Source: a virus
DNA: 38,639 nucleotides
Strand: one strand, 5' to 3'
Virus record (IMG/VR): IMGVR_UViG_3300025154_000239
Location: 1 to 38,639 of that record
Shown here: positions 3,085 through 34,998 of the stretch, piece by piece
Layout: every line of letters starts with the position of its first letter
How positions within the stretch are numbered: the first letter of the stretch is position 1
Made by a program: the position numbers and the translations under genes
The notes under the pieces: generated by a model
What the model was told of the DNA's origin: nothing
Seen by the model: the letters and a program-made list of their open reading frames with translations, nothing else
The model's database searches: none

Positions 3085-3789
3085 ATGATTAAACAAGCCC
3101 TGATTGACGCGGTTGAATACCTGGAAAAATGCGGGCATGAGATACCTCTTGCGCTGATGGTCTCGCTTGTCAGTCTGGGCGTCAAAACGGTGGAGTATTT
3201 CCAGTCAACACTAACCCGCATGGTGCGCAATGTCTACGACGGCGACTTGGGCGGGGAGTTTGTCCAGATCATGCAAGACCTTGTGTTGGGGCAAATCTCG
3301 CAGGCTTTTGAGACAGCATGGACAGATGACGGCAACGAGTTACCCCCGCCTGAGTACATCAGGGATGCAAGTCAAGAAATGGTACGCGAGCAATGGTCGC
3401 ACATAGACGACTTTTACCGTGCCATCGTGGACGCAAGGGTAGACCAGACCGGAGTTGACCCGCTATTGAGCCGTGTCCAGTTGTGGGCGAACAGGTACAA
3501 CGAGGCATATAACGAGGGGGTGAGATTGATCGCCCTCGAAACAGGCGGCAAGTTGGTCTGGCGATTGGGAAAAACTGAGGAGCATTGTGATACATGCTCG
3601 CGGCTAAACGGCATTGTCGCTTATGCCTCAGAGTGGGAAACAGCCGGGGTAAAACCACAGGCAGCCCCCAACGAATATTTGACCTGCGGAGGCTGGCGCT
3701 GCGATTGCTCGCTCGACCCGACTAAGAAGCGCAGGACGCCAGGCGCATTGGATAAGATACTCAGTATCATCGTAGGCGGTCATCTATGA
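3085..3789 (+). CDS. Minor head / head morphogenesis protein (SPP1 gp7 - Mu F type), left copy
   Basis: The protein has 234 aa. The C-terminal half carries the typical signature of this family: an EEHCDTCSRLNG segment, YASEWETAGV, and a later CGGWRCDC, giving a Cys cluster that probably binds metal. Such proteins sit inside the procapsid near the portal and assist assembly. Residues 1 to about 155 are nearly identical to the right-end copy, whereas the C-terminal about 80 residues are clearly more diverged, suggesting a recombination boundary. The start abuts the preceding stop, and the gene overlaps the next one by ATGA at 3786-3789. Confidence 0.85.
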   Translation: MIKQALIDAVEYLEKCGHEIPLALMVSLVSLGVKTVEYFQSTLTRMVRNVYDGDLGGEFVQIMQDLVLGQISQAFETAWTDDGNELPPPEYIRDASQEMVREQWSHIDDFYRAIVDARVDQTGVDPLLSRVQLWANRYNEAYNEGVRLIALETGGKLVWRLGKTEEHCDTCSRLNGIVAYASEWETAGVKPQAAPNEYLTCGGWRCDCSLDPTKKRRTPGALDKILSIIVGGHL

Positions 3790-4268
3790 TCCAAGTAACC
3801 ATTCGCAACGCCAAAGAAGTGGCAGCCTTCCTGAAGTCCGTTCCCGTTGGCACAAAGAAGATCGCACATCACAGCGTATTGGTTTACGTCAAAGGCAATC
3901 AGGGACACGGGCTGATGCACTACGTCCCCTACAAACACATCACGGTCAAACAGGCGGGCGGGTGGAAGTCGGACAAACAACGCCGCTATGTCATGGCGAA
4001 GATCCGCGAGGGCAAGATCGATCCGGGCGTGCCACATCGCACCGGACGTATGCAACGAGCCTGGAATATACAGCACATCGGAGACCAGGAGCGGATCATC
4101 AACCCGCTGGGTTATCCAAACTATGTCTTGCAGGACGATGAGCAAACTTTGGGACACAAGAAGCGCGGTTGGCGGGTGGTCTCGGATGTGGTCAAGAATA
4201 ACATTGCGGGCGCATTGAGATACGCCAACGCTGAGGTACAAAAATGGCTGAACGAACACGGCAAATAG
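3786..4268 (+). CDS. HK97 gp10-like neck / tail-completion-type protein
   Basis: The protein has 160 aa and is translationally coupled to the minor head gene by an ATGA overlap. It contains HRTGRMQRAWN (about residues 85-95) followed by a YPNYVLQDDEQTLGHKKRGW segment. That combination recalls HK97 gp10-like minor structural proteins, where TGR-L-R-S-W precedes a YA-x-x-V-E core. It is very basic. Placement directly after minor head and before capsid is unusual for tail completion, so a head-internal role is also possible. The right-end copy (38424 onward) is highly similar over the visible 72 codons. Confidence 0.55.
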   Translation: MIQVTIRNAKEVAAFLKSVPVGTKKIAHHSVLVYVKGNQGHGLMHYVPYKHITVKQAGGWKSDKQRRYVMAKIREGKIDPGVPHRTGRMQRAWNIQHIGDQERIINPLGYPNYVLQDDEQTLGHKKRGWRVVSDVVKNNIAGALRYANAEVQKWLNEHGK

Positions 4269-11734: not shown

Positions 11735-12722
11735 AGCCTTAAGACGCATCCAGTTGGGCCGTGAAGCAACCGCCGGAACAGCGGTCGCAGCCACAACCAT
11801 CTGGCGCGGCATGGGAACCATTGAAGACCAGCGCGAGACCGTTTTCCCGTCCGAGAACGTCGGCTATCTGTCCGGTCTAAGCCGCGCTTATCAGCCCAAA
11901 CTTGGCGCGGTAATATCAATGGATGCTGTGGAAGCCACCTACGAACAGATATGCCATGTCCTGGAAGCTGGCGTAAAGCTGGTCCAGACGGGCGCGGCTG
12001 ATGGTTCGGGCAGCGGCAAGATTTACACCTATTCGCTGCCAGTGACCGCCGCCAACACGACCCGCACATATACCATCGAAGGCGGCGATAATATCGCGGC
12101 TGAAGAGATGGAATATGCCTTTGTGTCCGAGTTCGGTCTGGACGGGGAAGCCGGCAAGGCGCTGATGATCTCCTCAACCTGGAACGGACGCCAGGTATCC
12201 ACCGCGGCCTTCACCGCTTCGGTAGCATTGCCGACCGTGGAGGAAATCCTGTTCTCCAAATGCGTCCTGTATGCGGACAGCGTCAGTGGCACAATTGGCG
12301 CAACAACCCAGTCCAACACATTGCTCAAGGCATCCCTGAAGATCACCACTGGCTTGATCCCGGTCTATACTGCCTCCGGGCAACTTTATTTCAGCTTCAC
12401 AAAGCAAGCTGGTCCGGAAGTCACATTATCTCTGACCTACGAACACGACGCTACCAGCGTAGCCGAAAAGGCTTTTTATGTGGCTGGCACAGCGCGCCAG
12501 ATACGCCTGAAGTTCCCCGGATCAACCCTGACCACCGCCGGGACTGCTTTCTCTACCAAGATTTTACAAATCGACCTGGCTGGCAAATGGGAGAGCTTCT
12601 CAAAGCTGGATGAACAGGACGGCAATGATATTCTGACCGGCGTATTCCGGGCGCGCTATGACTCAACTGCGGCATTGTTCGCTTCGCTGAAAGTTTGCAA
12701 CCTACTAAGTTCACTTCCTTGA
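11718..12722 (+). CDS. Major tail tube protein
   Basis: The protein has 334 aa. The N-terminus KALRRIQLGREATAGTAVAA is typical of long-tailed phage tube proteins. The body has beta-barrel-like strands with a DGEAGKALMISSTWNGRQ stretch near the middle, and the C-terminus is hydrophobic. It polymerises into the tail tube around the tape measure. AAGGAG precedes the ATG by 7 nt. Its last 12 nt overlap an antisense HNH endonuclease gene, so the insertion of that gene may have altered the original C-terminus or intergenic region. Confidence 0.85.
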   Translation: MTQGIKALRRIQLGREATAGTAVAATTIWRGMGTIEDQRETVFPSENVGYLSGLSRAYQPKLGAVISMDAVEATYEQICHVLEAGVKLVQTGAADGSGSGKIYTYSLPVTAANTTRTYTIEGGDNIAAEEMEYAFVSEFGLDGEAGKALMISSTWNGRQVSTAAFTASVALPTVEEILFSKCVLYADSVSGTIGATTQSNTLLKASLKITTGLIPVYTASGQLYFSFTKQAGPEVTLSLTYEHDATSVAEKAFYVAGTARQIRLKFPGSTLTTAGTAFSTKILQIDLAGKWESFSKLDEQDGNDILTGVFRARYDSTAALFASLKVCNLLSSLP

Positions 12723-13292
12723 TAAGTGCTCACGCGCCCAGGCAATCGCCATCTGCCTGTGTATCCATTGATGGTAAGAGACTGAGCAAATAAGTAGGTT
12801 ACAATTTCTATTGTCGGATTTGTCGAGGTTTATATGATGCACGATTTCAGTACTTTTAAGATTTCTGCCAATTACTTCTCCGGATATAAGCCTGTGGGAA
12901 AAATTTCTAGTTTTCCCATTAGTTCGCTTATCGCATGGCTTCATAAGATATCCTTTGGCGCTAAGCGTTTCTTCGCTTTTGTAGGCTATCCTGGCGGTTT
13001 TCATTCGCCTAGACTGTGCCTTCATATTACACGACTTAGAGCAAAAAACCTTCTTTACAGATGGCTTTGTGTTATATTCTTTTCCACACTCAGCACAAAC
13101 CCTATCAACACGATATCTACGAGAGGATATTCGCATACAGTTCATGCAACGAGTAGATCTATTACTAATCGGTTTACCACAATCGCAACACTTATATCCT
13201 TTGATAAAATCGTATTTTTTGCTACGGCAATTTGGGCACATTCCAGAATATTTTTTTATTCCTTCGTTTCTATGGCATACGTTACATTTCAT
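12711..13292 (-). CDS. HNH homing endonuclease with N-terminal zinc ribbons
   Basis: The protein has 193 aa. Several Cys pairs occupy residues 1-95 (CNVCHRNEG, CPNC, CCDCGK, CMNC, CAECGK, CSKSC) and look like treble-clef or ribbon zinc modules. The catalytic part has STEIVHHINLDKSDNRNCNL and WIHRQ, the HNH core. It lies antisense within the late operon, between tail tube and tail chaperone, with its own promoter-like box and a GGAG site. Its DNA is more AT-rich than the neighbours. This is the signature of a free-standing mobile nuclease gene; the cleavage target is unknown but is often the allelic gap. Confidence 0.85.
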   Translation of the reverse strand: MKCNVCHRNEGIKKYSGMCPNCRSKKYDFIKGYKCCDCGKPISNRSTRCMNCMRISSRRYRVDRVCAECGKEYNTKPSVKKVFCSKSCNMKAQSRRMKTARIAYKSEETLSAKGYLMKPCDKRTNGKTRNFSHRLISGEVIGRNLKSTEIVHHINLDKSDNRNCNLLICSVSYHQWIHRQMAIAWAREHLSRK

Positions 13293-18362: not shown

Positions 18363-18756
18363 ACTTCTCGTTAAGTAATTCTGTCTCATAAGCAGACCAA
18401 CTTGCATAACCCCATGACCTTGCGATCTCATTCAATTTCTGATTGCGGGAGCGGGTGTACTTCAATCCAGACGCAGGGGGCGGTGAGGGTAGACGCTCAT
18501 CTGATTTTGGGCAACCGGAAAAATGGATCTCGTTGCATACTGGACACGCCTCAACTCGCTTAACAATTACCAACCCCAAGCGTTCTCTAAGCCGATTATT
18601 TTTAGGATCATAATCCTTGTTTACTATCTTCCATAATAATGGACGTAATTTATTTGGGTCTTCATTTGGATAATATTGTGTGACAATATCCCCCCATGAC
18701 TTCCCTTTTTCTATTTCTTCTTTTAGTGTTTTTCTTAGTTCCCACGTGTATTTCAT
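18340..18756 (-). CDS. Small zinc-knuckle-containing protein, unknown function
   Basis: The protein has 138 aa. The N-terminus is helical and basic (YTWELRKTLKEEIEKGKSW), the middle has CPVCNEIHFSGCP (C-x2-C-x7-C) and the C-terminus carries a basic RSRNQKLNEIARSWGY helix. DNA binding is plausible. It is the most promoter-distal gene of the leftward operon, separated from the GIY-YIG gene by 53 nt that contain a palindrome and a weak promoter-like sequence. Confidence 0.6.
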   Translation of the reverse strand: MKYTWELRKTLKEEIEKGKSWGDIVTQYYPNEDPNKLRPLLWKIVNKDYDPKNNRLRERLGLVIVKRVEACPVCNEIHFSGCPKSDERLPSPPPASGLKYTRSRNQKLNEIARSWGYASWSAYETELLNEKSKSSKTG

Positions 18757-18775
18757 AATAAATAACCTTATATTG

Positions 18776-18792
18776 TGTAACTAATAGTTACA
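18776..18792. promoter_or_regulatory. Palindrome upstream of the terminal early gene
   Basis: TGTAACT-AAT-AGTTACA is a perfect 7-bp inverted repeat between the GIY-YIG stop and the 138-aa gene start. It overlaps a weak minus-strand promoter pattern, with TTGTAA about 15 nt before TATAAG. It could be an operator or a short RNA hairpin; no experiment-independent way to choose. Confidence 0.4.
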
Positions 18793-18809
18793 AGCCTATT
18801 TTGTGGCTT

Positions 18810-19625
18810 CTAGACGGCATCTAACTCCCCATCTTGGAGGGATTGAATCCATACAACATCTTCGTTTGTTAAGCGGAACCATTCATTGTGATGTAGTTTA
18901 TTTCTAAACTGCTTATGTAGCCATTGTTCAGATCGAAGTCTGTTCGCTGCGTAGATAGTAGAGCGCAACGAAAGACCCGCCGCATTCATTGACGCAAGAT
19001 TAGCAAAGCGAGTTTGCACATTGTCAGTATGGCCTATTTTACATAAGCCGTTGTCCGCTTCAATTAGATAAACCCAACCAGCAACCGCGTCTGAATAATG
19101 ATCGTCATCGTCTGACGTTATTCTTTCAATTAATTCAGCCTTAGTTTCCTTTACGGTTTCCGATTTTTTCTCTTGAGGATAAGACTGTTTTATTTTATCA
19201 ACTTCTTCCAATCGGCTCTTTTCGCGCTCTATACATTCCGGTTTTCCGCATATTATTCTGTAATCTTTCCAACTGTCAACTGTGAAAGATTGGGAACAAT
19301 GCCTACAATGGCGCGTAAGATCATCGCCCCAATACTCCGATAGTTCAATGTCTATTGTTTCTTTGTGTGGACGATATTCGGTCATGCTCAAGAAAATATT
19401 ATCCAATTCATCTTTGGTTAATCTAGTCGGAATTAATACGCAATTATAACCACCGGCTCTCGACATGATAATTTTTTTGTGATTCTCTTTTGATCCACTC
19501 ACGACGTAGTTGGGGCGGATAATATAGGCGTTTGGCTCATTCCCCGTTTGTAGTCTAAATACTTTTTGCAACTTGTCTAATTCGTGCGACGCATAAGCCA
19601 TGAAAAGTAAATCGTTGGTTTCCAT
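18810..19625 (-). CDS. GIY-YIG (T5orf172/MUG113-type) nuclease-like protein
   Basis: The protein has 271 aa. Residues from about 183 to 270 form a GIY-YIG domain of the T5orf172/MUG113 type: WVYLIEADNGLCKIGHT, then TRFANLAS and RLRSEQWLHKQFRNK with the expected Arg/Glu region, ending in EWFRLTNEDVVWI. The N-terminal half has a Cys ribbon (HCRHCSQSF ... CGKPEC) and a coiled linker. Endonuclease activity is expected. It is expressed from a strong internal promoter through the attenuator-like leader at 19626-19744. Confidence 0.75.
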   Translation of the reverse strand: METNDLLFMAYASHELDKLQKVFRLQTGNEPNAYIIRPNYVVSGSKENHKKIIMSRAGGYNCVLIPTRLTKDELDNIFLSMTEYRPHKETIDIELSEYWGDDLTRHCRHCSQSFTVDSWKDYRIICGKPECIEREKSRLEEVDKIKQSYPQEKKSETVKETKAELIERITSDDDDHYSDAVAGWVYLIEADNGLCKIGHTDNVQTRFANLASMNAAGLSLRSTIYAANRLRSEQWLHKQFRNKLHHNEWFRLTNEDVVWIQSLQDGELDAV

Positions 19626-19718
19626 TTACGCTCCAAAAAAAAATACAGCCGGTGTCATCCATTTACCACACTGTCTAAGGTGAGGAGCTTGTGGATAACA
19701 TCGGCTATATTTCGGCAA
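19626..19718 (-). CDS. 30-codon leader ORF in the GIY-YIG attenuator
   Basis: It starts at TTG (19716-19718), with AAGGAG eight nucleotides upstream (19727-19732), and ends at TAA 19626-19628, directly before the GIY-YIG ATG. The product would begin MPKYSRCYPQAPHLRQCGKW. Translation would run through segments C, B and D of the leader and so could prevent terminator folding. A genuine peptide function is unproven. Confidence 0.4.
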   Translation of the reverse strand: MPKYSRCYPQAPHLRQCGKWMTPAVFFFGA

Positions 19719-19744
19719 ACAAAAAACTCCTTACACCTTAGACA
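19634..19744 (-). promoter_or_regulatory. Attenuator-like leader upstream of the GIY-YIG gene (A-C-B-D)
   Basis: Read on the minus strand: A is 19744-19727 and pairs with B, 19687-19672 (16 bp with a 2-nt bulge). C is 19710-19693 and pairs with D, 19660-19643 (18 positions: 15 Watson-Crick, two G-T, one mismatch). D is followed immediately by nine T residues and then GGAG. A:B and C:D interleave, so they cannot form as ordinary nested hairpins at once. C:D plus the T run is a complete intrinsic terminator. The layout matches the leader at 24788-24894. Confidence 0.75.
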
Positions 19745-19749
19745 AAATA

Positions 19750-19777
19750 AGTATAGCACATACCGCCTGTTTTGCAA
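19750..19777 (-). promoter_or_regulatory. Internal early promoter for the GIY-YIG leader
   Basis: Minus strand TTGCAA, 16 nt, TATACT. The -10 ends at 19750, and leader segment A starts after five more bases at 19744. Confidence 0.65.
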
Positions 19778-19788
19778 CTATAAATTTA

Positions 19789-19911
19789 TCACATCCAATC
19801 ATCATCAAGCATCCCGTCCAGAATAGCATTGGCATCATGCCACGCCCAGACAACCAGGACGATGAAGTAAATAGTAATAATTACCAGTAGTATTATTCCA
19901 AGTATCAGCAT
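19789..19911 (-). CDS. 40-aa single-pass membrane miniprotein
   Basis: It begins MLILGIILLVIITIYFIVLV, a continuous hydrophobic helix, and ends in an acidic tail (AILDGMLDDDWM). The start overlaps the RusA stop by seven bases. Size and topology allow a holin-like or regulatory role; nothing specific is recognisable. Confidence 0.6.
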   Translation of the reverse strand: MLILGIILLVIITIYFIVLVVWAWHDANAILDGMLDDDWM

Positions 19912-20267
19912 GACAGCTCCTTTATTGTTATCGTAACCTTTCCACCTGGGAACGGATCGTCAAGGTCAATGAGTATCTTTTTTATCTGGTGATCATCCGC
20001 TCCGCACGCTGCGAAAATTCCATCCAGGGCGGCCTTGCAGCTCGAGAGCAAATTATCGGCATCGAAGTGTCTACGCGTGGGGGGGCTGAATACCACCTCC
20101 ATCACGAGCGGCTTGTCGTTGGGTATCTGCATCTTGCTTTCCAGTGCGAATAGCCGACCTTCAAACTTTGCGCTTGCGGCTGCCTTTGCCTTGACCCTGT
20201 AGTGAACCCTTGCATTGGGTGACAATTCGTGGGACGGCCAGGGAAGTTCTATTGTGTTGGTCATCAT
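19905..20267 (-). CDS. rusA: RusA-family Holliday junction resolvase
   Basis: The protein has 120 aa (119 from the second Met). Family landmarks are PWPSHELSPNARVHYR near the N-terminus and the acidic metal-binding residues in HFDADNLLSSCKAALDGIF (D69, D71, D82) and DDHQIK (D91, D92). It cleaves four-way junctions to resolve recombination and replication intermediates before packaging. It overlaps its upstream neighbour by four bases and the small membrane gene downstream by seven. Confidence 0.88.
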   Translation of the reverse strand: MMTNTIELPWPSHELSPNARVHYRVKAKAAASAKFEGRLFALESKMQIPNDKPLVMEVVFSPPTRRHFDADNLLSSCKAALDGIFAACGADDHQIKKILIDLDDPFPGGKVTITIKELSC

Positions 20268-20500
20268 ACCTCACTCCACATCTTCGGCAGCGGCTTACCT
20301 TCGAGGTCATGCTCCAAAACCAGCATGTAGATATATGCCAGACATACCGCCCTGCTCTGGTTTCCAAGATATGCAATCTGTTTCAATGCCTCAACATGCG
20401 CATCCGCCAGCGACCTCTTTTCAAGGGGCAAGCCTTCTTTCCACTGGTTGAATGTATCCGCTATGCCCTGCGCATTTTCGGGGGTGATTTTCATGTTCAT
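20264..20500 (-). CDS. Small helical protein of unknown function
   Basis: The protein has 78 aa (76 from the third codon, also ATG). It is predicted helical, with TFNQWKEGLPLEKRSLADAH in the N-terminal half and a hydrophobic AVCLAYIYMLVLEH stretch in the second half. It is coupled by four-base overlaps to RusA and to the 40-aa membrane protein. No family recognised. Confidence 0.55.
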   Translation of the reverse strand: MNMKITPENAQGIADTFNQWKEGLPLEKRSLADAHVEALKQIAYLGNQSRAVCLAYIYMLVLEHDLEGKPLPKMWSEV

Positions 20501-20619
20501 TTCATTATCCAGGATACGATCACAGCCACGACGAGAAAGAACGCGGCATCAAATAAGATGGCGATCAAGCATCCTTTCAGAGAAAATGGTACTCCGGGCG
20601 TCTCTGGTATGTCGTTCAT
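20497..20619 (-). CDS. 40-aa membrane miniprotein next to the endolysin (holin candidate)
   Basis: ATG at 20617-20619 overlaps the endolysin stop (ATGA). The product begins MNDIPETPGVPFSLKGCLIA and continues as a hydrophobic helix through FFLVVAVIVSWIM to a terminal Lys. Immediate coupling to the endolysin makes it the best positional holin candidate in the early operon, although 40 residues with a single span is small for a classical holin. Confidence 0.6.
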   Translation of the reverse strand: MNDIPETPGVPFSLKGCLIAILFDAAFFLVVAVIVSWIMK

Positions 20620-21695
20620 TGCTGCAGCTCCGCAATCAAGCTGTCGATATACGCCTTGACCTTTTCCAGCGCATCGATCACGTCCTCAACATTGTTGATA
20701 GGCGGGAGAGGCGGCTGGATAACAACAGGGTCATGCAGGACATAACTATTTGCCACATACCCTGCAAGCGGGTAGTCAATTTTTGCCCACCAGATACCCG
20801 CCAGGACAGTCCCGGTCACATTGATGCGCGTGCCGGTTGGCAGCGTCTGGATTATCGAGCCGCCAGTGGATGGCATGGCTCTGACGTTCAGGTTTACGGT
20901 CGTTTGTGCGTTTGTTTCTGGCATGGGTTCCTCTGTTGGTGGTTGAGCGACCACCGCGCCAAATAAAAGAGTAAAGTTTTCATCGCTGCAAATATTTACA
21001 TCCAAGTGTTTCTGCCAATAAGTAAGTTGGTCCAAGTAAGGAAACCAGGTCAACGCCTGCCACAGATTAACGGTTGTTACTCCGATTGGGTTGGGCGGCC
21101 AATAATTATTGATCTTCTCCATGATCTTGCGCAGGCTGGATACTGGAATTGTTGGGATCTCGCTATCCCACAACGCCCCCAAAGACATGATGTAATTCTG
21201 ATACCAGGTGAAAGACTTGACGTAGTAAGCACTCCAATATGGTGCGGTGTTGATCCATAGGTATGCTTTTGGGATGTAGGTATTAAGCACCCACCCGCCT
21301 GAATAATTGCCAACGATCTTATCGGGGAAGGCGTCCCGCATGTAAGAGAAAACAGCCTTATAAAAGGCGTTCAGGGTATCCGGTGAAATTACTGTACCAG
21401 AGTTGAAATACTTCGTCTCTTCAATGTCCACCCAGACCGAGAGGCAGTCGGGATATTCATTGACCAGAACCTCAAATAATTCACATTGTGATTTAACTGC
21501 CAGTCCGGGGTAGAAATAGAAATAAAAACCGAATGGCAGCCCCAGCTCCCGGCACCACTTGACGAAGGTTGGCAGCATGTCATCCTCTGAATGTGCCGCA
21601 CCCGCCCGGATGATCACACCATCAATGTCAAGCAGCTTGAATTTTTCGAGACTATAAGAATCTTGATATAAAGACAAATCCACAACTATCTTCAT
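20616..21695 (-). CDS. Endolysin: GH25 muramidase with SH3b domain
   Basis: The protein has 359 aa. Residues 1 to about 235 are a glycoside hydrolase family 25 lysozyme: the start VVDLSLYQ with D6, and the strand LSVWVDIEET with D90 and E92 as catalytic acids. Residues about 266-320 form a bacterial SH3 domain (LNVRAMPSTGG ... GYVANSYV) for wall binding, and the last 25 residues form an amphipathic helix. It cuts the glycan chain of peptidoglycan. I see no signal peptide, so a holin should be needed. It overlaps the HNH-AP2 gene by four bases. Confidence 0.9.
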   Translation of the reverse strand: MKIVVDLSLYQDSYSLEKFKLLDIDGVIIRAGAAHSEDDMLPTFVKWCRELGLPFGFYFYFYPGLAVKSQCELFEVLVNEYPDCLSVWVDIEETKYFNSGTVISPDTLNAFYKAVFSYMRDAFPDKIVGNYSGGWVLNTYIPKAYLWINTAPYWSAYYVKSFTWYQNYIMSLGALWDSEIPTIPVSSLRKIMEKINNYWPPNPIGVTTVNLWQALTWFPYLDQLTYWQKHLDVNICSDENFTLLFGAVVAQPPTEEPMPETNAQTTVNLNVRAMPSTGGSIIQTLPTGTRINVTGTVLAGIWWAKIDYPLAGYVANSYVLHDPVVIQPPLPPINNVEDVIDALEKVKAYIDSLIAELQQ

Positions 21696-22174
21696 CTATT
21701 ATCTCCAAAGTTTGTAATGGCAAACTCGCCGTGATTTTCTAAAGCATACTTGTCATAAGCTAACGCTGCTTCTTCTGCTGTATTAAAGTATCCAATAACT
21801 ATGTGCTTTCTTTTTTCCATTGTTTGAGCTAACCATCTTTTAACTCTTTTGGTTTTATTTGTAATATAAGTAACGCCTTTATAGCCGCTCGTGTTATTAT
21901 TTTGTTTGTCCCTATTTTTCATATTTTGTGAACCTGTACAAACCCTTAGATTTTCTCTTTGATTATCTAAAGTATTGTGATTAATATGATCTGTCTCCAT
22001 TCCTTTTGGAGTATTTACAATAACAGAGTGCATATAAATTCCTATATTGTTTCCTATACATCTTCGTGCATATTTACCATCACCACTCAAACACCATTTA
22101 TGTTGATTCAACTCTTCAAAATCTTCATCATCCACTATAGCCACCTTGCCCTGTGTCAGCGGTATTTCCTTCAT
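21692..22174 (-). CDS. HNH endonuclease with AP2 DNA-binding domain
   Basis: The protein has 160 aa from ATG 22172-22174, chosen for its GGAG six bases upstream. The HNH part (about residues 45-90) has ETDHINHNTLDNQRENLRVC. The C-terminal AP2 domain has SGYKGVTY and IGYFNTAEEAALAYDKYALE. This is a common free-standing phage homing nuclease. A TTG at 22240 would extend it in frame by 22 residues through the leader. It is AT-rich and inserted just before the endolysin, with which it overlaps. Confidence 0.88.
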   Translation of the reverse strand: MKEIPLTQGKVAIVDDEDFEELNQHKWCLSGDGKYARRCIGNNIGIYMHSVIVNTPKGMETDHINHNTLDNQRENLRVCTGSQNMKNRDKQNNNTSGYKGVTYITNKTKRVKRWLAQTMEKRKHIVIGYFNTAEEAALAYDKYALENHGEFAITNFGDNR

Positions 22175-22184
22175 GCTATTCTCC

Positions 22185-22263
22185 AATAGAAATCGCCCAA
22201 ACTGGCAGGGGAAGCTGCCAAATCTGGGCGATATTCTCAATAATTTGTTGGCTCTTCCCAGCC
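22185..22263 (-). promoter_or_regulatory. Structured leader upstream of HNH-endolysin (possible third A-C-B-D leader)
   Basis: Minus strand order: A 22263-22254 can pair with B 22214-22204 (about 9 bp with one mismatch and a bulge). C 22232-22225 (ATCGCCCA) pairs perfectly with D 22199-22192 (TGGGCGAT), followed by TTTCTATT and GGAG. An inner TGGCAG/CTGCCA hairpin (22203-22208 with 22215-22220) nests inside C:D and competes with A:B. The order matches the two stronger leaders, but the stems are shorter and the T run is weak. Confidence 0.5.
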
Positions 22264-22272
22264 GATGTTCTT

Positions 22273-22301
22273 ATTCTACCACACATATCAACCTATTTCA
22301 A
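22273..22301 (-). promoter_or_regulatory. Internal early promoter for HNH-endolysin
   Basis: Minus strand TTGAAA, 17 nt, TAGAAT. It overlaps the last bases of the upstream 61-aa gene and gives the lysis block its own promoter. Confidence 0.6.
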
Positions 22302-22483
22302 GAACAGATACCGACCCCACAACCACCCGCGCTGCGGAGCATGCGATAAGTCCGCTTGTACTTCTCAATGGCGGTTTCGATGGTCTCTTCCCTGTCCAGT
22401 GAGTAGCACCGCAGCTTTTCGGGTGCTGGCAATTCCCGCCCGTCTTTTATGTTGGTAATATTGATCGCAACTTTCTCGGTCAT
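22298..22483 (-). CDS. Small protein of unknown function
   Basis: The protein has 61 aa: a strand-like start (VAINITNIKDGRELPAPEKL), then a helical basic part and a Gly/Cys-rich end (SAGGCGVGICS). The start overlaps the coiled-coil gene stop by four bases. No family recognised. Confidence 0.5.
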   Translation of the reverse strand: MTEKVAINITNIKDGRELPAPEKLRCYSLDREETIETAIEKYKRTYRMLRSAGGCGVGICS

Positions 22484-22773
22484 GCGTCCTCTCCCATGAT
22501 AATTTCTGCAGCATCTTCAAGCTGATTTTCAAGTTCTACTATGCGTTCTTGCAGGGTTGCGTTCAAGAGCGCAAGTTCGCTGTTTGCTATTATATATTGC
22601 CCGAATTGCATGTGGAGTTTCGTGTCATTGTCTTCCAGTTTTTCGACGCGCTCATAAAGTTCGGCAAGTTCTTTCAGTGCGTCATCGCCTACCTTCTTCT
22701 GTTCGCGCAAATTCATTTCAAGCCATCTGTCTCTATCAAGTGATAATCTAATGTAATCTTCGATTTCGCTCAT
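22480..22773 (-). CDS. Coiled-coil small protein
   Basis: The protein has 97 aa, almost entirely heptad-like: LKELAELYERVEKLEDNDTK and then LLNATLQERIVELENQLEDA. It probably forms a dimeric or trimeric coiled coil. There is no catalytic motif and function is unknown. It overlaps both neighbours by four bases. Confidence 0.6.
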   Translation of the reverse strand: MSEIEDYIRLSLDRDRWLEMNLREQKKVGDDALKELAELYERVEKLEDNDTKLHMQFGQYIIANSELALLNATLQERIVELENQLEDAAEIIMGEDA

Positions 22774-23009
22774 TCCTTGCCTCCTCCTCTCGATCTCTCC
22801 ATCGACAATTTAGCGTGCAAGTTCTGCAGCACGCACTCGCAGAATATCAACCTGCCAAACTCCTGCTGGGTTGGGTGTAATTCCCGGCGCAGCCAGCCGG
22901 TTCCTTTGCAGATCGTACAATCAAACCTGCCCGGACTGCCCGGCTGCCACAGGCTCCAGGATGGTATTTGACTTTGCCAGTCGTGGACGTAGGTTTTGTT
23001 GTCCATCAT
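22770..23009 (-). CDS. Cys-rich zinc-binding small protein
   Basis: The protein has 79 aa. CTICKGTGWLRRE resembles one DnaJ-type CxxCxGxG repeat, and FCECV supplies a second Cys pair about 25 residues later, together enough for a zinc site. Trp-rich N-terminus. It is coupled to the methyltransferase gene by a four-base overlap. Function unknown. Confidence 0.6.
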   Translation of the reverse strand: MMDNKTYVHDWQSQIPSWSLWQPGSPGRFDCTICKGTGWLRRELHPTQQEFGRLIFCECVLQNLHAKLSMERSRGGGKE

Positions 23010-23452
23010 CTGCCTCCGTGCTTTTGCGGATCTAAAATAAACATGGCGATATGCCTTCCAGTTCCATTTCCGGGATCGTGATCTTCAATTGACAACCATT
23101 TTATGTCACGCAGGTTTCTAACTTCTGGGTTTTGCTCAAGAAGCATAAGTATCCATTTGTCAATCGGGTAAACCAGTACCACCTTCTTGCCCTTTTTGTA
23201 TTCAGCGATTGCCTTACGCACCCACGCTGTTGGTCCCTTCTTTTTTCCGTCCTTATCAACGTAGGCTCCGAAAGGCGGGTTTACATAATTAGATTTCCCC
23301 CATTCGACAGCCAGTCCATCAAAGTCATCTGGTTTAGGGTATGGACATGGGTCAAAGTCGATTTCAAACTCTGCCTCAATATCTGCCAATAAATCATCTG
23401 GCGTTAGCCAATAATGTTTGCCGTCTGCCTTATTTCCATTTTCAAACGTCAT
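23006..23452 (-). CDS. Phage DNA N6-adenine methyltransferase (Dam family)
   Basis: The protein has 148 aa. Family landmarks are YWLTPDDLLADIEAEF, FDPCPYP and the catalytic YVNPPFG (N58-P59-P60-F61), with a Gly/Lys-rich VVLVYPIDKW strand after it. It methylates adenine in DNA, often to protect phage DNA from restriction or to mark strands. It overlaps the helicase loader gene by four bases. Confidence 0.85.
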   Translation of the reverse strand: MTFENGNKADGKHYWLTPDDLLADIEAEFEIDFDPCPYPKPDDFDGLAVEWGKSNYVNPPFGAYVDKDGKKKGPTAWVRKAIAEYKKGKKVVLVYPIDKWILMLLEQNPEVRNLRDIKWLSIEDHDPGNGTGRHIAMFILDPQKHGGR

Positions 23453-24039
23453 TTGTTGCCTCCAAATTTATCCGCCAGCATTTTTATCTCTTTTTTGGTT
23501 TTTTCTTCCAACTCCCTGTTGTCATAGTCTGTCAATGCCGGATGCTCTGAGATGTCGGCTCGGATGCCATCCACTACCTCATCGTAGATCTTCAGGAACC
23601 TTGACCGGGCAAAGCTTTCCTGCCCGTTCTCAATATCCAGGCATATTTGCGGGAACCCGCCCATACGTCTCAGTGTCTCTCTCGTGGCTGGATGGTCCAG
23701 GATCGGAGAGCTTCCGCCGCCTGACAAATTACCGGCGGGCATGCGCACTATTGATTCTCTGCACTCCGCCCAAACCGCGCTGCCTGTCTCAAGTCCGGTA
23801 TTCTTTACGCGCATCCCGGCAACCTTGCCGCGTATTTCACCTGGGGATGGTGCGAAGGCGCGTCCACTTTCAAGACAGCAGGCTTTGACTGCGAGCTGCA
23901 ATTCCTGGTATGGTACATCGCCCAACAAATCCTCCAGTACGTCAATGGTAGTCAATCCACCTTCGATGATCGGGTTGTAGTTTGGAAATGCCAGTTTGAT
24001 ATATGCCACAATATTTGTTATGTCATTACGCGTTGCCAT
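23449..24039 (-). CDS. Helicase-loader-like replication protein (G39P type)
   Basis: The protein has 196 aa. Residues 1-75 have the compact helical pattern of the SPP1 G39P family: DITNIVAYIKLAFPNYNP, then VPYQELQLAVKACCLESGR and the loop FAPSPGEIRGKV. Such proteins deliver the replicative helicase to the initiator-bound origin. No phage helicase is visible, so a host DnaB-type helicase is the likely partner. It overlaps the replication-organiser gene by 14 nt. Confidence 0.72.
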   Translation of the reverse strand: MATRNDITNIVAYIKLAFPNYNPIIEGGLTTIDVLEDLLGDVPYQELQLAVKACCLESGRAFAPSPGEIRGKVAGMRVKNTGLETGSAVWAECRESIVRMPAGNLSGGGSSPILDHPATRETLRRMGGFPQICLDIENGQESFARSRFLKIYDEVVDGIRADISEHPALTDYDNRELEEKTKKEIKMLADKFGGNK

Positions 24040-24775
24040 CGATCACCTCCGGTATTCTAAGTTTATTAAGCTTTGTGAAAAAATCCTCGTTACTGTCTTT
24101 CTTTCCCGGCTTGCTCTGCCCCTGCTTCCAGTTCTTTGCAGCCGTCTCCATGCTATCCATTAGTCCCATGCGGTTGGTCATGTTGATCTCTTTCTTCTCA
24201 GCCCACTCTGCGATACGTTGCGCTTGCTCGAACCCGACCGATTCAACCAGGGCGATCCATCTCTTTTGTTCTCTCTGGTTATTGAAGTTCCCGAAGTGTG
24301 CAAAGAACTCAGCGTCCGTTGGGGATTTTGATGGCTTTGCATCTGCATTTGATTCTGATTGTGCATTTGATTCTGTATATGTATTTAAGGGTGAATTACT
24401 CTTGACTAACTCTGGAGTAGGTATGGAGTAGGTATCGAATGGTGCAGGTAGCAAGCTTGGAGCTTCTTTTTCAAAACCACGTTGGTACTCTTGAAACTTT
24501 ATAACCCAAAAGTACTGCCTGTTATCTACATCGTAGATGTTTACCATGCCCCTGGCCGCAAACCATTCCATGCCCGACGTGATTTGTACCTGGGTAACGT
24601 CCTCTCGTAGTGGAAATATTTTTGACTTGATCCAGGATGCGTTATAAATTCCCCTGCCTTCGCAGTCCAGCCCGAGAGGTAATAGAACCCACAACAAGCG
24701 GGTGAAGTCGTCCGGCATTTCGTTGAAATCGAATGACTGTGTTATCTTGGTGTGAATGGATCTGAATTTTGGCAT
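24026..24775 (-). CDS. Replication organiser / initiator-like protein
   Basis: The protein has 249 aa. ATG 24773-24775 was chosen over a GTG nine bases earlier because AAGGTGG then serves as ribosome site. The N-terminal half (FRSIHTKITQSFDFNEMPDD, LLWVLLPLGLDCEGRG, WIKSKIFPLREDVT) resembles winged-helix replisome organisers. A polar linker follows, with a helical C-terminal part. Binding the origin and recruiting the loader is the expected role. It lies behind the strongest promoter of the window and an attenuator-like leader. Confidence 0.7.
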   Translation of the reverse strand: MPKFRSIHTKITQSFDFNEMPDDFTRLLWVLLPLGLDCEGRGIYNASWIKSKIFPLREDVTQVQITSGMEWFAARGMVNIYDVDNRQYFWVIKFQEYQRGFEKEAPSLLPAPFDTYSIPTPELVKSNSPLNTYTESNAQSESNADAKPSKSPTDAEFFAHFGNFNNQREQKRWIALVESVGFEQAQRIAEWAEKKEINMTNRMGLMDSMETAAKNWKQGQSKPGKKDSNEDFFTKLNKLRIPEVIDGNA

Positions 24776-24787
24776 AAATACCACCTT

Positions 24788-24894
24788 GTAAAAAAGAAGC
24801 CCGCCTCAATGCTTTATTCCTTCGCTTGTCACAGTTCAGGCTTTGTCATTGGGGCGGGCGTCTTCGGAATAAAAAAAAGCCGGGAACTGTGACA
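24788..24894 (-). promoter_or_regulatory. Attenuator-like leader upstream of the replication genes (A-C-B-D with T run)
   Basis: Minus strand order: A 24894-24884, E 24873-24866, C 24859-24847, B 24837-24827, E' 24820-24813, D 24811-24799, then TTCTTTTTT. A is the exact complement of B (11 bp, extendable by GGCTTT/AAAGCC), E of E' (8 bp), and C of D (13 positions, one G-T). All three pairings cross each other, so they are alternatives. C:D with the T run is an intrinsic terminator. A six-codon ATG ORF (24849-24829) begins in C and stops in B, without a clear ribosome site. Confidence 0.82.
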
Positions 24895-24899
24895 TATTT

Positions 24900-24928
24900 A
24901 TTATATAGACTTCCCGCACCAATGTCAA
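24900..24928 (-). promoter_or_regulatory. Perfect consensus sigma-70 promoter for the replication block
   Basis: Minus strand TTGACA, 17 nt, TATAAT: both boxes and the spacer match the consensus exactly. The -10 ends at 24900, and leader segment A starts after five bases at 24894, so transcription should start at or within A. Confidence 0.92.
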
Positions 24929-24931
24929 GCA

Positions 24932-25690
24932 TCAAACCCCACAGATCCCAGAACATTCATTGTCCCATAGCGACAACTGCCCTTGCTCTTCTGGGGTGCG
25001 GAAGTCAATATCAACTAATGGTCTTCTGGAAGGGTGGACAAATATTCTATGAGGCGGACGACGGTTGCGCATCTGTTCATCAACTTCTAAAGCCCCTTTC
25101 CAATCTTCAGGAATTTGTTTAATGCGTCGCCACTCAGCCGTTGAATGGTAAGGGCAGAATATACAAGAAGATCTTGGAGGTTCCTCTAAATTATGATCTG
25201 CCAACCATTTTTTGCAATCCGATCTGCTCACACCATTGTCAATCAACGGGTAAACATTGGTTATATATTTGACATCGCTATCTCTCATGCGTTTGTATTC
25301 GTCTGTGGAAATACCGATCCATTGTTCAACTTTTTGACCTTTTCGGTTGGCTTGTATCCATCGTCTCATTGGATAAATTTTCCACTGCGATGTACACTGG
25401 CGCTTCCCCTGTCCGGCTTTTCCGCTTTTGGAAATGGAATAAAATGGCGGATCTTCTTGACCATATCCATTATCCAGCGGGTCACTATGCTTCGGTTTTA
25501 CTGTGACAACCCTTACGCCGTGTTCTTCCAGCCAGGGTGTCCACTTCTCGGCAAACCGATAAGTTAAGATGCTTTCGTGGGTTGTATCCGAATGGACAAC
25601 CGCATCAACCATAGGCAATTCTTTAAGCGCGACCATAGCTGCCAATGTAAAACTCTGTACTCCCCAACCAAGTGATAATATTTTCATCAA
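24932..25690 (-). CDS. PAPS-reductase-like PP-loop enzyme
   Basis: The protein has 252 aa. The N-terminal SLGWGVQSFTLAAMV is a variant PP-loop (adenine nucleotide alpha hydrolase/PAPS reductase type). VDAVVHSDTTHES follows as the second nucleotide strand. Cys residues at C99, C159, C176/C179 (CIFC) and C246/C250 could hold an Fe-S cluster or zinc. Phage proteins of this family are frequent but their substrate is often unknown; sulfur transfer to nucleic acid is one possibility. It overlaps the DUF5658-like gene by four bases. Confidence 0.72.
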   Translation of the reverse strand: MMKILSLGWGVQSFTLAAMVALKELPMVDAVVHSDTTHESILTYRFAEKWTPWLEEHGVRVVTVKPKHSDPLDNGYGQEDPPFYSISKSGKAGQGKRQCTSQWKIYPMRRWIQANRKGQKVEQWIGISTDEYKRMRDSDVKYITNVYPLIDNGVSRSDCKKWLADHNLEEPPRSSCIFCPYHSTAEWRRIKQIPEDWKGALEVDEQMRNRRPPHRIFVHPSRRPLVDIDFRTPEEQGQLSLWDNECSGICGV

Positions 25691-33360: not shown

Positions 33361-34998
33361 ATGGCGAAATTATATAGCGAGATTATCAAAGCGATCACCC
33401 ACATCCCGTCCTGGGCGTCATCCGAGGATGATTACGGGGACAAGATCAAGACTACCCAGGCGTCGTACAAGCTGGTCCCGCTGGTCTATCGCTCCATCCG
33501 CTTGCGCTGCGACGCTATTTCAAGCGTGCCGGTCAGAGTTTACAACCAGTCTGATGCCCTGGTGGATTGGCCGTTCGTGCTCTCCCCCTCCCGCTTCCTG
33601 CGTCTGACCGAGGCATCCAAACTGCTGTACGGCGCTGCGTTCTGGCTGAAATTACCGAACCCGTACCGACCCAAGACACTGGATTTTATCAATCCATTCA
33701 CGATGAACCAGCCCAAGTTATTGGCAGACGGAAGCTTGCAATTCAGCCAGACCATTAACGGTGCGGTCGTGGCAACCTGGAAGCAAGATGACATCGTTTA
33801 CGTCAAGGACTTTTTCAACCCTGAGGATGACATTGGACCGGGTGTAAGCGCTGCCGGTGTAGCGTTGGCGGATAGCGGATTGTTGCATTATATGTCCAGG
33901 TTCTCGAGCAAGTTCTTTGAGAGCGGAGCCATGCCGCTGACCATCGTTGCCATTGACGGGACGATCGATGAGCCGGAGCGCAAAAGGGTGGAGAACTTTT
34001 TCAAGCGCAATATGACCGGCATATCCAACGCTTGGCGGGTGTTGGCGATGCGGATGCGGGGAACCATGAAGCCGGAAGTCATCACCCCCAAAATATCTGA
34101 CATGGCGATGGATAGTAACTACAATATTGCCGCCAAGAATATCGAATACGCATTTGGGATCCCTGAAGGGATGCTGCGATCCGAGAGCAACCGCGCCAGT
34201 GCCGAGGAACATCGCAAGTCATTCTGGCAGGATACCGTCAGACCATCCGGTCAGGGAACAGAGGACATTGCTAACGAACAGTTATTCTCCCTCATGGGTT
34301 TGCGGGTCGAGCTGGCATTTGAAGATCTGGACGTATTTCAGGCAGATGAAGCCGCGCGGGCTGGCAGTCTCAAGAGCCTGGTGGATGCGGGCGTGCCTCT
34401 ACTCATGGCGATGGAGCAGTTGGGCTATGACCTGGACGATGATCAGATAGCAGAATTGAGCAAGAAGCCTGCGCCCGCACCCGTGTCCGTGCCGACTGAC
34501 AACAGCCAGAGCGACGCGGATCAAGACCTGGCAAAATGGGAGCGCATGGCGATCTCACGCGTGCGTGCGGGCAAGACTATCCGGGACTTCACCAGCGACT
34601 GCATCCCTGATGAATTACACGCCGGAATTTCTGAGGCATTGCAGGACGCCAAGAGCGAGGCGGACGTCAAACGCATATTTGCGGACAAACCCGAGGGGAA
34701 GCCAGACAACAAGGCGGAGGCGATACTCAAGGCGATTGAGCTGGAGGTCGCAGCCTTGCAGAAGACCAGCCAGACAGCACAACCTATCAATGTCACGGTA
34801 CACAATCATCCCGGCGAAACTCCTGTCGTGAATATCACTCAGGAGGCGCAAAAGGCACAGGAGCCGCCAAACGTGACGGTCGTGGTGGAGCCAACACCCG
34901 TGACCATCAAGAATGACATCAAAGTTACTGGCAACGAGCCAGACGAAACGGATGCGGTGCTGAAAGTCATCAGGAAACTTTCCAATGGCAAAGAGTAA
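33361..34998 (+). CDS. HK97-family portal protein (complete copy)
   Basis: The protein has 545 aa. N-terminal landmarks are YKLVPLVYRSIRLRCDAISS and SKLLYGAAFWLK; the central wing/stem region includes DFFNPEDDIGPGVSAAGVAL and IPEGMLRSESNRASAEEHRK; the C-terminal part carries extra Val/Thr-rich segments (NVTVVVEPTPVTIKNDIKVT). It is the copy to compare with 2-1075. It overlaps the fibre gene by 14 nt. The C-terminal extension absent in the other copy may interact with the different downstream fibre. Confidence 0.93.
   Translation: MAKLYSEIIKAITHIPSWASSEDDYGDKIKTTQASYKLVPLVYRSIRLRCDAISSVPVRVYNQSDALVDWPFVLSPSRFLRLTEASKLLYGAAFWLKLPNPYRPKTLDFINPFTMNQPKLLADGSLQFSQTINGAVVATWKQDDIVYVKDFFNPEDDIGPGVSAAGVALADSGLLHYMSRFSSKFFESGAMPLTIVAIDGTIDEPERKRVENFFKRNMTGISNAWRVLAMRMRGTMKPEVITPKISDMAMDSNYNIAAKNIEYAFGIPEGMLRSESNRASAEEHRKSFWQDTVRPSGQGTEDIANEQLFSLMGLRVELAFEDLDVFQADEAARAGSLKSLVDAGVPLLMAMEQLGYDLDDDQIAELSKKPAPAPVSVPTDNSQSDADQDLAKWERMAISRVRAGKTIRDFTSDCIPDELHAGISEALQDAKSEADVKRIFADKPEGKPDNKAEAILKAIELEVAALQKTSQTAQPINVTVHNHPGETPVVNITQEAQKAQEPPNVTVVVEPTPVTIKNDIKVTGNEPDETDAVLKVIRKLSNGKE

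Follow-up and report, generated by a model that had tools for sequence, protein, structure and literature searches.

The window analysed here is a 38,639-nt stretch of viral DNA (IMG/VR record IMGVR_UViG_3300025154_000239), and the leaders described below lie on its minus strand. Leader 1 (24894→24788) precedes a replication initiation protein gene (24026–24775; PHROG replication initiation, E 4e-8). Its σ70 promoter, TTGACA-17-TATAAT (24900–24928), matches the consensus at 12/12 positions and is kept in a sister phage, G001. Segment A (TGTCACAGTTCCCGGCTTT; 24876–24894, with TGTCACAGTTC at 24894–24884) starts five bases after the -10 box, at approximately +1, and pairs with segment B (AAAGCC..GAACTGTGACA; 24827–24844, with GAACTGTGACA at 24837–24827). 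Segment C (GAAGACGCCCGCCCCAATG; 24847–24865) forms a terminator-like helix with segment D (CATTGAGGCGGGCTTCTTT; 24793–24811), which has a U-rich 3ʹ end. Segment E (TTTATTCC; 24866–24873), read from the sequence, pairs with segment F (GGAATAAA; 24813–24820), identified from the sequence and from the class-wide E:F test described below. The Shine-Dalgarno (SD) sequence of the initiation gene, AAGGTGG (24781–24787; TTTTTACAAGGTGGTATTTATG, unchanged in G001), follows.

Leader 2 (19744→19634) is located upstream of a gene for a T5orf172/MUG113-domain, homing-endonuclease-like protein (18810–19625; PF10544, E 3e-10). Its promoter is TTGCAA-16-TATACT with an extended -10 (19750–19777). Segment A (TGTCTAAGGTGTAAGGAG, that is, TGTCTAAGGTG..AAGGAG; 19727–19744) likewise starts five bases past the -10 box and pairs with B (CTCCTCACCTTAGACA; 19672–19687). 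C (19692–19713) pairs with D, which together with its U9 tail spans 19635–19661 (D itself is 19661–19640, followed by U9 and GGAG), and E (TTTGCC; 19714–19719) pairs with F (GGTAAA; 19662–19667; p 0.006). Hence, leaders 1 and 2 each have a third crossing helix, and their full order is A-E-C-B-F-D.

Is this architecture more than chance complementarity? With both strands of the window scanned, leaders 2 and 1 ranked first and second for this architecture (scores of 67.2 and 61.3, respectively). When the whole window was dinucleotide-shuffled 120 times, the maximum was 58.3, such that neither score was ever attained, and neither was attained in 300 shuffles of the individual leader. The sequence-only reading had described two, possibly three, leaders sharing a plan of promoter, A five bases after the -10, C, B and D, with A complementary to B and C to D. 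Two of these are real, and their E:F helix had been overlooked. The third is not convincing. Leader 3 (22192–22259), upstream of an HNH_3/AP2 endonuclease gene (21692–22174; PF13392, E 1.6e-8), has a strong C:D hairpin (22232–22215 with 22208–22192), but its A:B helix is only 6 bp (GGGAAG/CTTCCC; 22259–22254 with 22214–22209) and its segment A sits 13 nt past the -10 box. Its score of 41.6 falls inside the shuffled range, below the shuffle maximum (per-leader p 0.007). Leader 3 is best read as an ordinary strong hairpin. A, B and D have no second copy of 11 nt or longer elsewhere in the window, and the absence of a further copy of A or B argues against a separate trans-acting RNA gene within it.

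The architecture is not confined to this phage. Database searches in which complementarity was never a criterion led to 28 leaders, spread over 17 contigs of uncultured phages, and one more in an 18th contig. The crossed-helix leaders are a class found in many unrelated phage contigs. They recur several to a phage with unrelated sequences, and those within one phage are mutually distinct. Protein relatives of the initiator, the T5orf172 protein, a conserved 196-aa protein and the terminase were limited to two close phages and distant terminases. No leader was found in three viruses with distantly related terminases (Methanoculleus virus Blf4, a Rhizobium phage and a Manatee Spring phage), or at eight loci carrying HNH or LAGLIDADG genes in cultured and environmental phages. 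A search for the leader pattern across 394 genomes of one phylum gave zero matches, and the leader DNA had no match among plasmids.

Pairing is strongly conserved across the class. Among seven alignable leaders, 93% of aligned cells pair, as compared with 32–50% for slid controls, and 16 of 21 pairs are altered on both sides, a result matched in 0/500 shuffles. These counts cover only type II leaders because the MAFFT alignment of type I leaders did not register B. The covariation of A with B and of C with D in homologs, on which the sequence-only reading had staked its proposal, is thus overwhelming. The E:F pairing is also significant over the class (p 1.5e-5). Under equal penalties, G-U pairs greatly outnumber A-C mismatches (56 versus 14; p 4e-7), indicating that selection acts on the sense-strand RNA and ruling out a function at the level of DNA or of the opposite strand. 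In most leaders the tail of D is U-rich and lies directly before the SD sequence (median of 6 T in 8). It is U-poor as measured in G409a, G401, G403c and G410; in G401 and G410, however, the script picked a helix that extends beyond the U run. The SD sequence follows D, is not part of any of the helices, and is not sequestered in a stem. Two leaders, G406b and G406c, deviate from the usual geometry in that A is not near +1.

Nuclease genes lie downstream of 16/28 leaders but only 2/28 pattern-matched controls; with leader 3 included, the count is 17/29 (Fisher p 3e-5). They encode HNH, T5orf172, LAGLIDADG, endonuclease VII and TnpB proteins. Replication operons lie downstream of a further group of leaders (6/28).

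Leader 1 of G001 retains the SD sequence, the promoter and the start, TGTCACAG, but A, E and C are new, with matching new B, F and D. Three two-sided changes separate the E:F helices of the two phages (TTTGCTCT/AGAGCAAA in G001; read by hand). The replaced region comprises the leader interior and the N-terminal half of the initiator, whereas the C-terminal part is 94% identical. Judging from synteny, G001 lacks leader 2 together with the T5orf172/MUG113 gene behind it, and also lacks the HNH_3/AP2 endonuclease gene behind leader 3. The leaders had been proposed to form a phage-wide system controlling successive operon blocks. This description is partly wrong, since leaders 2 and 3 belong to nuclease-gene segments absent from G001, and too narrow, since the class extends to many unrelated phage contigs.

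What do the leaders do? A:B is 11–19 bp long, and C:D, which crosses it, is about equally strong; duplex energies are mostly approximately -20 to -36 kcal/mol. Folding the leaders with and without D gave, for most of type I, the order expected of an attenuator: before D is included, the minimum-energy fold contains A:B in every leader evaluated, and once D is included, most type I leaders switch to C:D. Most type II leaders keep A:B after inclusion of D when folded without pseudoknots. The earlier suggestion of transcription attenuation is partly supported by these folds and by the covariation, but C:D was missed by a standard terminator scan. Such a scan is blind to C:D because the loop is ~25–45 nt, far above that of ordinary intrinsic terminators. 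On the strength of sequence and predicted folding, we think that the leader is probably a two-state RNA switch that works as a transcription attenuator. Transcription would begin at A, and A:B would close once B is made, trapping C in the A:B loop. When D is made, C:D would compete for the RNA by crossing A:B. The downstream gene would be transcribed provided that A:B, with support from E:F in many leaders, survives until the polymerase is beyond the U-rich stretch. Occupation of A, or opening of A:B, would instead let C:D form immediately upstream of the ribosome-binding site, and the transcript would presumably end without the gene. Where the linker between B and D is long, both helices may exist at once as a pseudoknot. 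Attenuation of this kind would keep the expression of mobile nucleases and replication initiators low or timed.

Amino-acid operon and riboswitch attenuators are likewise built on helices that exclude each other, one being a terminator-like stem. In those systems the usual order is 1-2-3-4 with shared arms (2:3 versus 3:4). In contrast, no arm is shared in the leaders described here; the helices exclude each other because they cross. The P1 c4 immunity RNA provides another parallel, with complementary leader segments that control early replication or antirepressor genes. In P4, the CI RNA is a processed RNA located between seqA and seqC, and causes termination by pairing with them (PMC4825925). 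The c4 and CI systems resemble the class in having complementary segments within one leader and RNA-pairing control of early replication or antirepressor genes. However, unlike P4 CI, all partners here lie within ~110 nt and three helices cross. Rfam covariance models, including that for c4 antisense RNA, matched no leader at the gathering threshold, and relaxed thresholds gave only chance-level matches.

The sequence-only reading had pointed to the pT181/pIP501 plasmids as an analogue. There, a leader before the replication initiator gene has a terminator-like stem whose U run lies immediately ahead of the rep start, and an alternative upstream pairing prevents the stem (PMC5703833). Leader 1 resembles this in its downstream initiator gene, its terminator-like stem with a U-rich tail and its alternative upstream pairing. 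The likeness is one of logic only. In the plasmids the pre-emptor's partner is the 5ʹ terminator arm, whereas A pairs with B in the C:D loop and not with C. The plasmid input is an antisense RNA made from the other strand. The leaders often have a third helix, and most precede nucleases. A consensus scan found a promoter-like site on the opposite strand inside 1/28 leaders, compared with 1.35 expected from shuffling. Antisense promoters are thus no commoner than chance, which argues against control by antisense RNA, and hence against membership in the pT181/pIP501 group. Phage homing endonuclease genes of the T4 type are likewise held down by 5ʹ leader structure (PMC2988022). The T4-type hairpins sequester the ribosome-binding site, and transcription from a late promoter escapes them; in the present class, the SD sequence is free, the promoter is σ70-like and two crossing helices compete. 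A search of the open-access literature turned up no account of a leader like these, and as phage leader RNAs they appear to form a class not previously described.

Our guess is that the input to the switch is the terminated leader from other copies, giving self-specific dosage control: the free A tail and loop-displayed B of a terminated leader could pair with a new leader. In its stronger form, which we consider possible but somewhat doubtful, the terminated leader is itself a small RNA that acts in trans. A leader with C:D formed would have a free A tail and display B in the loop, and this B would pair with A of a new transcript, beside a U run, forcing termination. Copy-number feedback and incompatibility of phages with the same leader would follow. 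Consistent with this idea, the A:B duplex of a leader with itself averages -22.2 kcal/mol, as compared with -7.1 kcal/mol with other leaders; the own partner is the best in 26/28 cases; leaders sharing a phage differ from one another; A ends beside a U run in most leaders; and between the window and G001 the leader interior and the initiator's N-terminal half were replaced together. However, A:B pairing in cis is kinetically much likelier, and drift constrained only by pairing, or recombination, would also diversify leaders. A wider proposal, which we offer with considerable reserve, is that of a sequence-independent, self-addressed A-E-C-Aʹ-Eʹ-Cʹ leader whose own terminated product recognizes new copies, serving as an exchangeable dosage and incompatibility module for phage replication initiators and for homing and mobile nucleases of five unrelated families.

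Alternatively, the crossed helices could form a pseudoknot just 5ʹ of the ribosome-binding site that binds a protein or sets ribosome access, with no stop in transcription. The end of D is a few to ~20 nt from the SD sequence in many leaders, several C:D helices (in G397, G404 and G409a) reach the SD sequence and have weak U runs, and the phage endonuclease gene seg43(25) has a stable hairpin of unknown role directly 5ʹ of its ribosome-binding site (PMC2988022). Nonetheless, translational or protein-gated control seems unlikely given that most members keep the U-rich tail of D, that the SD sequence is outside the helices, and that no conserved protein-readable loop sequence was found across members. 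More improbable still is a passive role for the helices, as a 5ʹ structure shielding the mRNA or fixing expression at a low, unregulated level. A starts at approximately +1, so the 5ʹ end would be paired in A:B, but one helix would be enough for protection, and the leaders have two or three that cross, are balanced and covary. We also give very little weight to ribosome sensing in the seven type II leaders, whereby a ribosome bound at a start codon after the U run and a purine-rich, SD-like sequence in A would block A:B and favor C:D. ATG or GTG does occur at one shared column in 7/7 aligned type II leaders, and leader 2 has AAGGAG ahead of TTG, but the reading frames vary from 6 to >40 codons, and a usual start codon is missing there from many leaders of type I. 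Since the frames are not conserved, a class-wide leader peptide can be dismissed. A U-A-U triple-helix pseudoknot was dropped on geometry, the purines being on the wrong strand.

A leader that works as an attenuator would be one device common to HNH, T5orf172, LAGLIDADG, endonuclease VII and TnpB genes as well as initiators, which would suggest a shared need to limit or time proteins that cut DNA or start its replication. Sequence-based RNA discovery would miss the class, since conservation is limited to the pairing and the helices cross one another. The same extreme freedom of sequence would make these leaders a natural set of distinct attenuators.

When both strands of the 38,639-base window (an IMG/VR phage record) were scanned for pairs of crossing helices with a T run behind them, the two highest scores fell to leader 2 (minus strand, 19744→19634; score 67.2), before the T5orf172 gene, and leader 1 (minus strand, 24894→24788; 61.3), before the replication initiator gene. 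The maximum in 120 dinucleotide-shuffled windows was 58.3, and 300 shuffles of each leader's own sequence never attained its score. Hence, the interleaved A-C-B-D architecture that a sequence-only reading proposed for these leaders, both sequences of which were read directly, is borne out. The same reading suggested leader 3 as a possible third case. That leader is not a convincing one: its simple hairpin is strong, but A:B has just 6 bp, with A 13 nt past the -10 box, and shuffles also attain its score of 41.6.

Leaders 1 and 2 have a third helix. Segment E lies between A and C, and F between B and D, giving the order A-E-C-B-F-D and three mutually crossing helices, A:B, E:F and C:D. With G·U allowed, E:F is TTTATTCC/GGAATAAA in leader 1 and TTTGCC/GGTAAA in leader 2. 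Combined over 28 leaders, the p value for E:F complementarity is 1.5e-5. It is clear in leader 2 (W2), G001, G397, G400 and G404, and absent in the type II group, in which B and D nearly touch.

The phage closest to the window, IMGVR_UViG_3300025154_000350 (G001), keeps the promoter, start (TGTCACAG) and end (TTTTTACAAGGTGGTATTTATG) of leader 1. The interior differs, with A, E and C changed jointly with their partners B, F and D; counted by hand, there are two-sided changes in 3/8 E:F pairs and about 4 in C:D. This pair of leaders amounts to a natural experiment. The leader of another phage, G002, is a third version, unrelated to either. The replication initiators (24026-24775 in the window; L002 in G001) are 94% identical in the C-terminal half and unrelated in the N-terminal half, which has been exchanged together with the leader interior; the Shine-Dalgarno (SD) sequence between the two is identical. 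Leaders 2 and 3 lie in nuclease-gene-bearing segments (18363-19782 and 21668-22299, respectively) that are absent from G001. Leader 1 is immediately preceded by a PAPS-reductase-like gene (24932-25690, minus strand), which G001 also lacks.

Leaders with this architecture form a class that is widespread across phage contigs. A DNA pattern of promoter, five bases, TGTC and T run, with complementarity left out, yielded 59 loci. In about a dozen of them the crossed architecture is complete, which greatly exceeds what shuffles give. With further patterns and a scan of complete contigs, the total rose to 28 leaders, spread over 17 contigs, and G412 was added to these. About 18 leaders score >50 in real contigs, and the best score in shuffled contigs is 46.6. 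Two or three leaders of different sequence occur together in several phages; no cultured phage carries one among the few loci examined. Not every member counts as independent: G402a is orthologous to G405, and most of A is common to G406a, G407, G408, G410 and G412. Membership of G406b and G406c, which are atypical in that A is not near +1, is tentative. Many members were retrieved with the TGTC start and U run as part of the search; in the eight leaders found without these terms (G002, G398b, G399b, G402b, G402c, G403b, G403c, G409c), the U run is usual and TGTC not always present.

Covariation between A and B and between C and D is present in homologs. In the seven alignable type II leaders (A2), with a 15-bp A:B and a 6-bp C:D, paired cells make up 93.2% over both helices, and 16/21 pairs have two-sided changes. 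The covariation score is 0.839, versus 0.313 in shuffles (0/500) and ≤0.20 in slid controls. G·U outnumbers A·C by 56 to 14 under equal penalties (p 4e-7) and by 40 to 7 under the harshest, although the G·U-tolerant discovery scan may have biased the G·U count somewhat. This excess indicates selection on the sense strand, and the selected molecule is therefore RNA from the leader's own promoter; DNA or antisense RNA in that role conflicts with the 56 to 14 ratio.

What is the function of these helices? The best-supported reading is a two-state attenuator. Polymerase would transcribe A, a U-rich spacer, and then E, C and B, and A:B would close with C enclosed. As D emerges, C:D would have to form at once to act at D's U-rich end; a closed A:B (and E:F) would hinder it through crossing, such that the transcript would run on through the SD to the gene. 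With A open, C:D could form, and termination probably occurs there. The D tail is U-rich in most leaders (median 6 T in 8), but C:D, with a loop of about 25-45 nt, is missed by a standard terminator scan. The fold before D contains A:B in every leader evaluated. Once D is added, most type I leaders fold with C:D in place of A:B, and most type II leaders keep A:B. Duplex energies are of the same order, about -14 to -35 kcal/mol for A:B and, two outliers aside, -9 to -36 kcal/mol for C:D; similar energies and the folding of A:B before D are requirements of a switch. Since B-D spacing is 0-1 nt in G401 and a few others, full A:B and full C:D presumably cannot coexist there. A linker of 10-16 nt may allow a pseudoknot with both helices.

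A distinctive possibility for the attenuator's input is the terminated leader itself: its A would be free and its B displayed in the loop, and it would recognise new leaders. Consistent with this, pairing is self-specific (own -22, others -7 kcal/mol), and the leaders of one phage are mutually distinct. In type II leaders the input might also be a ribosome at the start codon, but their reading frames are not conserved. An antisense RNA of the pT181/pIP501 type is not supported, as antisense promoters within the leaders do not exceed chance in a consensus scan. The window holds no further copies of A, B or D of 11 nt or longer, and only one chance-level 11-nt match to C.

Nuclease genes lie behind 16/28 leaders, and are of HNH types (G397, G398a, G399a, G399b, G401, G402a-c, G403a, G403b, G404, G405), endonuclease VII (G398b), LAGLIDADG (G409b), T5orf172 (W2) and TnpB/OrfB_IS605 (G410); of these, G405 is a fragment, and G399a is assigned by a weak PHROG match. 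Replication genes or operons follow six (leader 1, G001, G002, G403c, G406b and, with a primase, G406c), and small genes of unknown kind another six. Controls that matched the pattern and lacked the structure, annotated by Pfam for ten and otherwise by eye, precede nuclease genes in 2/28 cases (Fisher p 3e-5, a value that includes leader 3 and so uses 17/29). In the same phages, some HNH genes have no leader; hence, the leader is not obligatory.

The sequence-only reading named pT181/pIP501 as an analogue. The control logic is indeed alike, but the parts differ. P4 CI RNA and IsrK are examples of terminated RNAs that come from phage leaders and act in trans. T4-type homing endonucleases are held back by RBS-sequestering hairpins; in Aeromonas phage 25, one hairpin of unexplained role precedes an RBS. 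No Rfam family fits. We classify the leader as a probable attenuator and, by sequence and topology, as a new RNA class belonging to none of the pT181/pIP501, P4 CI RNA/IsrK, T4-type hairpin or Rfam families; the literature compared was open-access, and an earlier description elsewhere is possible.

Several other features were observed. In L058 (G398a), a repeat of the 5ʹ portion of A covers the SD (TGTCGAGGGAGG), which would let B pair with the RBS as well. A single leader recurs in contigs L079, L080 and L083, each time preceding a TnpB (OrfB_IS605) gene, with a hairpin-like repeat upstream (ACACCGGGCTTTAGCCCGGTG). Contig L055 has, around 4127-4177, an HNH/AP2-like gene with an operator-like inverted repeat flanking the promoter -10 box (AAACTGATTAGA / TCTAATCAGTTT). 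Contig L019, which bears three leaders, has an Rfam int-alpA RNA match (3240-3305, plus strand; 45 bits). In the window, a second HNH_3 gene (12711-13292, minus strand) lies next to the late operon and has a plain promoter without a crossed leader. The contig ends (1-4231 and 33335-38639) are 82-86% identical and constitute one region in two divergent copies, each with a portal gene (62-1075 and 33361-34998). Both align to a single stretch of G001 and may represent strain-variant wrap-around, duplication or chimeric assembly.
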